DNA of 64,000 nucleotides from Ancylobacter rudongensis (GTDB lineage: Bacteria; Pseudomonadota; Alphaproteobacteria; Rhizobiales; Xanthobacteraceae): NCBI RefSeq assembly GCF_900100155.1, contig NZ_FMTP01000007.1, positions 62,001 to 126,000 of the forward strand, given 5' to 3'. The notes beneath the pieces are model-generated. The model was given only the letters and a program-made list of their open reading frames with translations. It was not told where the DNA came from and searched no databases. Within the stretch, counting starts at the first letter, position 1, and every line of letters begins with the position of its first letter. The position numbers and the translations under genes were made by a program. Below, in pieces: positions 24,945 to 26,550 of the stretch.

Positions 24945-25367
24945 ATGGCGCTCGAGCGCACTTTCTCCATCATCAAGCCCGACGCCACCCGTCGCAATCT
25001 CACCGGCGCGATCAACGCCACCATCGAGAAGGCGGGCCTGCGCATCGTCGCGCAGAAGCGCATCCTGCTCACCCGCGCCCAGGCAGAGACCTTCTACGGC
25101 GTCCACAAGGAGCGTCCCTTCTTCGGCGAGCTCGTGGATTTCATGATCTCCGAGCCGATCGTCGTGCAGGTGCTGGAAGGCGAGGACGCCGTCGCCAAGT
25201 ATCGCGAAGTGATGGGCGCCACCAACCCGGCCAATGCGGCCGAGGGCACCATCCGCAAGGAATTCGCCCTCTCGGTCGGCGAGAATTCGGCCCATGGCTC
25301 CGACAGCCTGGAGAATGCGCAGATCGAGATCGCGCAGTTCTTCGCCGGTAACGAGATCGTCGGCTGA
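24945..25367 (+). CDS. ndk: Nucleoside diphosphate kinase
   Basis: A 140-residue enzyme that balances NTP and dNTP pools by ping-pong phosphate transfer. The phosphorylated histidine is His117 in NSAHGSDS, and the nucleotide-binding Lys11 is in IIKPDA. Length is exactly that of the family. The ATG at 24945 follows AGGAAGCACGTC. A promoter is visible upstream and a terminator at 25413-25447, so it is probably monocistronic. Confidence 0.97.
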
Positions 25368-25412
25368 TCGCTCTGGTCCGCTGCCCGCAAGGGTGGCAGG
25401 GCCTTGAAAACG

Positions 25413-25447
25413 CACCCCGTCCGGTCCGCCGGGCGGGGTGTTTCTTT
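25413..25447 (+). terminator. Intrinsic terminator after ndk
   Basis: CACCCCGTCCGG pairs with CCGGGCGGGGTG (one G-T pair) around a TCCG loop, followed by TTTCTTT. It lies 45 bases past the ndk stop. Confidence 0.9.
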
Positions 25448-25525
25448 GTGCGAAGCAGCGTAGACTAAGCGTTCGCAGCATCGATAATTGACAAAATGCG
25501 GTATTCGGGCTTGGCCACCGCATGG

Positions 25526-25538
25526 ATTATTATGTATG
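25526..25538 (+). promoter_or_regulatory. A+T-rich motif upstream of first terC gene (copy 1)
   Basis: ATTATTATGTATG is followed six bases later by AGATGGG. A near match (AATAATAATGTATG, then AGATGGGG) occurs in front of the second terC gene at 26532-26555. In such GC-rich DNA the shared A+T-rich block is notable and may be an operator or promoter core common to both genes. It is a sequence observation; no regulator is identified. Confidence 0.45.
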
Positions 25539-25550
25539 TTCCCTAGATGG

Positions 25551-25732
25551 GCGCTGCGGGGGTCCGGCCATGGAGAAGTGGCCCGCAGCGGGGATGCCGT
25601 TTAATGGCGCGCCAAGAGCGCCCGGGAGTGGGCCCGCCGGAGCCACCTCCTCTTGCCTCACCAGAAAAAATGGCGCGCCAACGCCGAAACAACTGACTGG
25701 AGTTCCGCCCGCATCCGGGCGGGAGGTGAGGG
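25551..25732 (+). promoter_or_regulatory. Structured leader of first terC gene
   Basis: Three foldable elements precede the ribosome-binding site. CGCTGCGGG (25552-25560) pairs with CCCGCAGCG (25582-25590). A 13-base sequence, AATGGCGCGCCAA, occurs at 25603-25615 and again at 25669-25681; its TGGCGCGCCA core is self-complementary, so the two copies can pair with each other or each act as a dyad. CCGCCCG/CGGGCGG (25705-25722) forms a hairpin that abuts the GGAGGTGAGGG ribosome-binding region. This looks like a regulatory leader, but it does not match the manganese (yybP-ykoY) riboswitch as I know it. Confidence 0.45.
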
Positions 25733-25741
25733 AATGACCAC

Positions 25742-26446
25742 ATGGATTACCTTGAGCCGCTTTTCTGGCTAGCACTTCTCAAAATCATCTGGATCAACGT
25801 CCTGCTGTCCGGCGACAACGCCGTCGTCATCGCGATGGCCTGCCGCTCGCTGCCCGACAAGATGCGCCGCACCGGCATGATCCTCGGCGCCGCCGTCGCG
25901 GTCGGCATGCGCATCGTGTTCACCGCCATCATCGCCGTGCTGCTGGGCCTGCCCTGGCTGCGCATCGTCGGCGCGCTGGCGCTGATGTATATCGCGGTCG
26001 ACCTCGTGCTGCCGGAAGAGGGCGAGGAAGGTGGCGTCGCCGCGCATGACAATCTGTGGCGCGCCGTCGGCACCATCGCCGTCGCTGACCTGGTGATGAG
26101 CCTCGACAATGTCGTCGCCATCGCCGCCGTTGCCGATGGCGACTGGACGCTGATCATTATCGGCCTGGTCATTTCCATCCCGATGATCATTGCCGGCGCG
26201 GCGCTGATCATGGGCCTGCTGGCGCGCTTCCCCTTCCTGGTGTGGGCCGGCGCGGCGCTGCTGGGCTGGGTCGCCGGCGAGATGTTCGTCTCGGACATCA
26301 AGGTGCTGGACTATTTCGGCGAGGCCATGGTCCATCACTACGAATACGCGGCGGCGGCCGCCGGTGCGGTGATCGTGCTCGGCACCGGCTGGGCGATCTC
26401 CCGCTTCAAGGGCGGGACTCACGCTGCGGGCCCGCACGGCTCGTGA
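25742..26446 (+). CDS. TerC family membrane protein (first of tandem pair)
   Basis: A 234-residue membrane protein with about seven segments. It carries the two TerC acidic repeats, LLSGDNAVVIAMACRSLP and VMSLDNVVAIAAV, that put Asp-Asn pairs into the membrane, in the compact YjbE/YkoY-like form without extra domains. TerC-family proteins are associated with metal export, manganese in the best-studied cases, or with tellurium resistance; the substrate here is inferred only. The ATG at 25742 is preceded by GGGAGGTGAGGG. It shares over half its residues with the next gene, and each has its own leader, arguing for separate control. Confidence 0.88.
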   Translation: MDYLEPLFWLALLKIIWINVLLSGDNAVVIAMACRSLPDKMRRTGMILGAAVAVGMRIVFTAIIAVLLGLPWLRIVGALALMYIAVDLVLPEEGEEGGVAAHDNLWRAVGTIAVADLVMSLDNVVAIAAVADGDWTLIIIGLVISIPMIIAGAALIMGLLARFPFLVWAGAALLGWVAGEMFVSDIKVLDYFGEAMVHHYEYAAAAAGAVIVLGTGWAISRFKGGTHAAGPHGS

Positions 26447-26470
26447 ACTGAACGGGGCTTCCCTCCCCCT

Positions 26471-26511
26471 CGACGCCCGCGACTCGTCAAGAGCGCGGGC
26501 GTCGGGCGTTT
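26471..26511 (+). terminator. Probable terminator after first terC gene
   Basis: CGACGCCCGCG (26471-26481) pairs perfectly with CGCGGGCGTCG (26494-26504), with a further CTC/GAG extension in the loop. The following GGCGTTTC is only weakly T-rich, so termination may be partial. Confidence 0.55.
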
Positions 26512-26522
26512 CAGGGGCGATT

Positions 26523-26550
26523 TCTGGCGTAAATAATAATGTATGCCAGA
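26523..26550 (+). promoter_or_regulatory. A+T-rich dyad upstream of second terC gene (copy 2)
   Basis: TCTGGCGTA (26523-26531) and TATGCCAGA (26542-26550) are inverted repeats with one mismatch, flanking an AATAATAATG core. The core plus TGTATG matches the block before the first terC gene. This has the form of an operator dyad; a manganese-responsive regulator is a reasonable guess from the gene family, not something shown by the sequence. Confidence 0.5.

Follow-up and report, generated by a model that had tools for sequence, protein, structure and literature searches.

An orphan leader RNA and a separate palindrome precede the tandem terC genes of Ancylobacter

TerC proteins have been linked to metal handling and to the metal supply of exported enzymes (PMC10550928, PMC12096827). 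For the RNA control of their genes one riboswitch class is described, the manganese riboswitch yybP-ykoY (RF00080), reported to act either where transcription terminates or where translation is initiated (PMC13274385). The terC1 gene examined here is likewise preceded by a 5′ leader, the position in which yybP-ykoY is found ahead of genes for TerC-family or manganese-efflux proteins (PMC13274385), but this leader gives no match to the RF00080 covariance model. It resembles leaders that sequester the Shine-Dalgarno (SD) sequence, and translational riboswitches, in that an anti-SD/SD pairing adjoins a conserved core and a competing fold can be drawn, and differs from them in having no known ligand, in its occurrence in one genus and in a core that is not proven by covariation. 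No paper on this leader was found in the openly licensed PMC literature. For the two terC genes of the window, the 64-kb stretch of Ancylobacter rudongensis DNA that was analysed, we lean, with somewhat better than even confidence, towards two independent control regions: a translational switch RNA for terC1 and a palindrome bound by a transcription factor for terC2. The leader RNA is the more interesting of the two elements.

The two A+T-rich blocks ahead of terC1 and terC2

In the window, which belongs to a 4.5 Mb genome, ndk is followed by terC1 and terC2 in tandem, both of them genes for TerC-family membrane proteins (Table 1). The two are 55% identical, and TerC1 is 91% identical to its counterpart in Ancylobacter dichloromethanicus (L002). 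Among 30 genomes of the genus sampled for comparison, the window's own included, the pair occurs in 29, and the remaining genome (G003) has terC1 alone, still preceded by the leader. The window's own genome has a further TerC-family gene, its third, which is only distantly related (28% identity; G000:C5:8881-9474) and has counterparts in many members of the genus.

Table 1. Features of the terC region, in window positions
Feature	Position	Strand	Evidence
ndk (nucleoside-diphosphate kinase), neighbour upstream of terC1	24945..25367	+	Pfam NDK 8.5e-53
Intrinsic-terminator-like hairpin after ndk	25412-25441		terminator scan
Putative terC1 promoter TTGGCC-18-TATGTT, containing the copy 1 A+T block	25511..25540	+	conservation; TTGGCC 25511-25516, 18-base spacer, TATGTT 25535-25540
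Near-invariant core of the terC1 leader RNA, 135 bases	25551..25685	+	30-genome alignment
Anti-SD CCUCACC, end of the CU-rich tract	25656..25662	+	complementary to 25725-25731
Hairpin just upstream of the SD, stem 25704-25711 with 25716-25723	25704..25723	+	covariation
terC1 SD GGUGAGG	25725..25731	+	sequence; predicted paired
terC1, TerC/YjbE family, 234 aa	25742..26446	+	Pfam TerC 1.1e-44; TIGR03717 5.9e-60
Perfect inverted repeat, 11 bp, downstream of terC1	26471..26504	+	inverted-repeat search of the terC1-terC2 gap
TTCAGG, possible weak -35 of terC2, 18 bases before TAATAA	26510-26515	+	sequence
Imperfect palindrome (copy 2), 28 bp, TCTGGCGTAA-N8-GTATGCCAGA, putative terC2 operator	26523..26550	+	genus conservation
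TAATAA, possible terC2 -10 inside the palindrome	26534..26539	+	sequence
terC2, TerC/YjbE family, 247 aa	26608..27351	+	Pfam TerC 4.5e-48; TIGR03717 1.1e-69

The initial annotation had described one A+T-rich block, ending in TGTATG and followed by AGATGGG, ahead of both genes (copy 1 before terC1, copy 2 before terC2), the second flanked by an inverted repeat, and had read this as the mark of a shared regulator or promoter class. The letters are indeed present, with TGTATG at 25533 and 26540, AGATGGG at 25545 and 26550, and the arms TCTGGCGTA (26523-26531) and TATGCCAGA (26542-26550) at copy 2, and within the 64-kb window TGTATG is followed by AGATGGG within 8 bases at just these two places. 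Both blocks are also extreme for window DNA of 66% GC: the lowest 15-base stretch has 13% GC in copy 1 and 7% in copy 2, and about 2 in 10,000 and 2 in 100,000 window stretches, respectively, are as low. Alignment of the two upstream regions gave a score of 15, which is reached by 113 of 1000 shuffled pairs; their direct likeness is weak and no more than chance. AGATGGG follows copy 1 in three of 30 genus loci (L082-L084) and copy 2 in three of 29 (L082, L089, L092), and among the genus genomes it stands behind both copies in the window's own genome only. It was dropped as a part of the motif, the tails being a coincidence without conservation in the genus.

What is conserved beyond chance is the copy 1 block (30/30), the copy 2 palindrome (26/29) and, between the two copies that had been compared, a leader before terC1 that was absent from the earlier description. 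The conserved parts differ: before terC1 it is a promoter-like TTGGC..TATGTT, with no dyad conserved, and before terC2 a 28-bp dyad. The idea that conserved regulatory elements precede both genes has held up, for both of them within the genus and not outside it, where the palindrome matrix gave no score above 1.2 bits on terC upstream regions; the idea that they are a single element is not supported. The letters are real, yet they are parts of two distinct elements and not of one shared island.

TTGGCC-18-TATGTT is read here as a putative sigma-70-type promoter of terC1. Across the 30 genus genomes, TGGC and then ATTATTATGTATG are almost unchanged within the 32 bases around copy 1 (18 of 32 columns invariant, mean identity 0.885), and ATTATTATGTATGTT occurs exactly once per genome in 28, with one base changed at the same place in the other two. 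A consensus promoter scan did not find TTGGCC-18-TATGTT and reported a site at 25461-25488 instead. A wider regulon of the copy 1 block was rejected, since with up to two mismatches the 30 genomes yielded 31 further places and the reversed control 34. In G005, G013, G014 and G020, ATTATTATGTATTTG, which differs from the block by two mismatches, occurs once each.

Conservation and structure of the terC1 leader

The leader of about 190 nt follows the putative promoter and begins at 25551. In its core, 106 of 142 alignment columns are identical in 30/30 genomes and the mean pairwise identity is 0.922, compared with 0.714 at the third positions of the first 80 terC1 codons, 0.571 in the leader tail and 0.499 in the spacer upstream of the promoter. 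The leader thus contains a conserved, aptamer-like core of the kind that characterizes translational riboswitch classes. A translated leader peptide was considered and rejected, as indels of one and two bases within the core argue against it. The leader also holds two invariant GGCGCGCC palindromes (25606-25613 and 25672-25679), 66 bases apart, which are able to pair with each other or to fold locally.

In searches of family, order and class genomes, plasmids and phages, the leader is confined to this genus. A profile search of 111 loci retrieved the 30 genus loci, the window's own genome again (L001) and the named Ancylobacter loci L002, L020 and L027 at E <1e-45, the best locus after these having an E of 0.31; the leader represents one orthologous locus per genome, and its placement before terC1 is not independent evidence. 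The covariance model of the core (R1) matched in 2/297 order genomes, both of this genus, and in 1/385 class genomes, the window's own, in large searches whose stricter filters may have passed over weak or diverged homologues. Among 119 family genomes, a search at the DNA level hit five members of this genus plus a partial stretch (L123), which lies within coding sequence and was not accepted as a homologue. No copy of the leader was found in plasmids and phages, and the terC upstream regions of nine loci from other genera, read by eye, contain no similar leader. No Rfam family reached its gathering score anywhere in the window; the terC region, searched at E up to 10, gave only sub-threshold matches to eukaryotic small RNAs and a Streptomyces RNA, and five genus loci, the window's own included, gave 13 matches, all sub-threshold and none on the leader.

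For the structure, 28 distinct leaders out of 33 loci were aligned, five identical leaders having been dropped. The complementarity between anti-SD and SD is conserved, with 98% of cells in this helix paired, so that the anti-SD can pair with the SD in most members, in a register that varies. The hairpin just before the SD covaries: four of its eight pairs change on both sides, 85% of its cells are paired and 15 cells show a both-sided change. Over the whole structure there are 17 such cells versus 6.9 in shuffles, none of 500 being as high, although related sequences can exceed such shuffles without any structure, and 97.1% of cells are paired versus 40-54% with the partners slid. Pair 119-190 was not counted as covariation; it shows two pair types, yet is unpaired in 14/28 leaders. 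RNAalifold on the core found a both-sided change in one of 39 pairs, with a covariation term of -0.4 of -60.3 kcal/mol, and the folding energy of the whole leader is ordinary (z -0.54, 56/200 shuffles as stable). The core helices mostly never vary, so that neither fold is supported or refuted by them and the covariation resides mainly in the hairpin before the SD. Double changes are seen in columns 88-99 (GC to AU, 2/28), a pair of the competing fold, and in columns 127-143 (CG to UA, 3/28), a pair of the masked fold.

In the folding model, the leader is predicted to hide the terC1 SD. The mean pairing probability of the SD is 0.962 in the 28 leaders versus 0.704 when the sequence upstream of it is shuffled (34/560 shuffles reach the value of their own leader), and in 27/28 leaders the predicted mean for the SD exceeds 0.5. 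In the lowest fold it pairs with the CU-rich tract in 26/28, comprising 20 leaders in the CCUCACC register, five in a shifted register and L105, whose changed SD GCUGAGG pairs with CUCAGC of the same leader; the exceptions are L090 and L092, whose lowest fold pairs the SD otherwise and leaves it partly free. The lowest fold of the window's own leader has the SD on the CU-rich tract in the shifted register, the CCUCACC register lying 1.8 kcal/mol higher with a probability of 0.18. This register is more than 0.1 kcal/mol above the lowest fold in 7/28 leaders, the window's included, and 3.9-11.9 kcal/mol above it in L092, L105, L108 and L109. The competing fold, which joins the two palindromes and uses part of the anti-SD, is predicted at 1-10 kcal/mol above the lowest, with a population of at most 0.17.

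A model for terC1 control and its alternatives

We propose that terC1 would be transcribed from a promoter of its own, at copy 1, with a structured 5′ leader of about 190 nt, in which pairing of the CU-rich anti-SD tract, ending in CCUCACC, with the SD GGUGAGG would keep terC1 off. In the competing fold, a long-range UGGCGCGCC/GGCGCGCCA helix together with GAGCGC/GCCUC pairing would occupy part of the anti-SD and loosen the masking. As in translational riboswitches, some signal would tip the balance between the folds; judged by the gene context, Mn2+ or another metal, or pH, is the likeliest one. The leader would be classed as an orphan, riboswitch-like translational switch, with ligand and switching both inferred, as are, for the locus as a whole, the transcription starts, the terC2 regulator and the direction of control. 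A metal response of the terC genes, which the initial annotation had raised as a possibility, is plausible and would fit the YjbE/TerC family. The leader is compact and the predicted switch gives clear predictions.

The nearest known candidate is a highly diverged yybP-ykoY riboswitch. The gene immediately after the leader is of the TerC/YjbE family, as expected of an RF00080 leader of a manganese-homeostasis gene, TIGR03717 and TIGR03716 carry "R_switched" in their names, and TerC-family genes are among the known targets (PMC13274385). However, RF00080 has no match in the window at the gathering score, and relaxing the limit to an E of 10 for the terC region or to an E of 5 for five genus loci brought up none; 0/30 genus genomes exceed the cut-off and the window's own genome shows no match even at an E limit of 1, and we regard this identity as very improbable. 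The family itself exceeds the cut-off in 3/150 order genomes (6/150 at E up to 0.001), and in two other order members that were checked it precedes mntP (L180:1605-2228, L181:1710-2273). Within the genus, an E limit of 1 brings up a match in 12/30 genomes. One of these is convincing, a sub-threshold match in G005 with 36.9 bits and an E of 3.7e-8; short fragments in the others reach an E of 6e-4. G005 is also the one genome of the 30 with mntP. Most of the genus is without mntP and the riboswitch, yet has kept the terC pair with its orphan leader, which hints at a manganese role without showing one. It is conceivable, though less likely than not, that the leader is the sole member so far of a new metal-sensing riboswitch class of one alphaproteobacterial genus, unrelated to yybP-ykoY, which arose where mntP and the manganese riboswitch are mostly absent. 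Rather unlikely in our estimate is a cis-regulatory RNA that is sensed by a protein, temperature or pH and not by a bound metal or metabolite. The arrangement of anti-SD, hairpin and SD can serve such switches as well, and no evidence here points to a particular signal, but the invariant columns, more than 100, exceed what a thermometer would need.

A second, unrelated leader on the TerC family would permit a direct test of the repeated evolution of manganese-sensing RNA; if the signal is a protein or something else, the leader would still be a conserved RNA without an Rfam match. In G005 (L186, L187; G005:C46:24736-25455), mntP with the RF00080 match directly upstream and the terC leader occur in the same genome.

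The palindrome before terC2

The perfect inverted repeat downstream of terC1 is possibly the terminator of that gene, which would give terC2 a transcription unit of its own; this repeat is not among the sites of the terminator scan. In the proposed scheme, a dimeric transcription factor, probably a repressor, would bind the 28-bp palindrome, which overlaps the putative -10 of terC2. The promoter scan reported no site at this putative promoter. The inverted-repeat search of the gap between the genes, which found the perfect repeat, did not pick up the palindrome, whose arms are imperfect in the window; in L090 and L092 they are perfect.

At the fixed spacing of 8, TCTGGCATAC-N8-GTATGCCAGA or a variant of it (up to five mismatches in 16 arm positions) precedes terC2 in 26/29 genomes and is missing in three (L108, L109, L110). 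When spacings of 6-12 and up to three mismatches were allowed, the palindrome was found before terC2 in 24 genus loci, always as N8, so that terC2 is preceded by a conserved dyad of fixed spacing, as expected of the operator of a dimeric transcription factor. Its end lies 51-72 bases from the terC2 start codon in 24 genomes and 179-180 in two. With the stricter pattern (up to three mismatches) there is one place per genome in 22/30, all beside terC2, versus none for the reversed-pattern control. A single site per genome is not what is usually seen with a transcription factor. The weight matrix was trained on 27 sites, among them that of L108 (4 mismatches, 8.4 bits, 240 bases upstream), which was judged to be no real palindrome, and 26 were counted.

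Copy 2 is most likely a repressor operator, that is, a site for a DNA-bound protein, the repressor being suggested by the position of the possible -10 within the palindrome. The transcript could instead form an RNA hairpin in the terC2 leader, with a possible 10-bp stem and an 8-nt loop; the arms of 22 distinct sites pair slightly better than shuffled ones (10/1000 as high) and contain four double-change cells versus 1.5 in shuffles (31/1000 as high). The inner positions, however, vary without compensation, with C-A in 8/22 and A-G in 12/22, which favours recognition as DNA over a stem in the RNA, and the A/T centre is conserved nearly as much as the arms; the chance of a hairpin seems to us small. 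Only a little more credible is one regulator acting on both blocks, perhaps through a common half GTATG next to the A/T core. WTWATWATGTATG occurs in both blocks of the window, and under a matrix built from the genus copy 2 sites, copy 2 itself included, copy 1 comes 8th among the strand positions of the 64 kb, better than a random place, although A+T richness by itself would raise this rank. Against it, copy 1 scores -2.5 bits and copy 2 54.8 bits, 57 bits apart, and copy 1 is without a conserved left arm or outer arms in the 30 genomes. The shared regulator or promoter class of the initial annotation is not supported by these scores, and a common regulator of terC1 and terC2 is possible, not likely.

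Returning to the putative operator, the site resembles the operators of the manganese-responsive transcription factors MntR and Mur in being a palindrome before a manganese-linked gene, but its sequence differs from what we take to be their motifs. A search of the window's own genome for DtxR/MntR-type domains (PF01325) gave two matches, one above the cut-off whose best score is as a MarR-family protein, so that it was set aside, and one below it (L179); no DtxR/MntR-type candidate for the regulator of terC2 thus came from a match over the cut-off.

A wider palindrome regulon was likewise not accepted, six places in the window's own genome having up to three arm mismatches versus four in the reversed-pattern control. 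Two of the five places not at terC2 were looked at and were not counted as a regulon: L112 (G000:C4:23869-23892), a similar palindrome TGGCATGC-N8-GTATACCA between two divergent genes, by eye those for pyruvate kinase and pyruvate carboxylase, and L115, a palindrome-like place near a gene read as a tricarboxylate-binding protein. In Xanthobacter and Azorhizobium (L004, L009), other palindrome-like stretches were seen by eye before the terC2 orthologues (CCTAGGGTAAATTTTACCTTAGG; TTACCTTAGGTAAGGTA), and the operator may differ between these sister genera.
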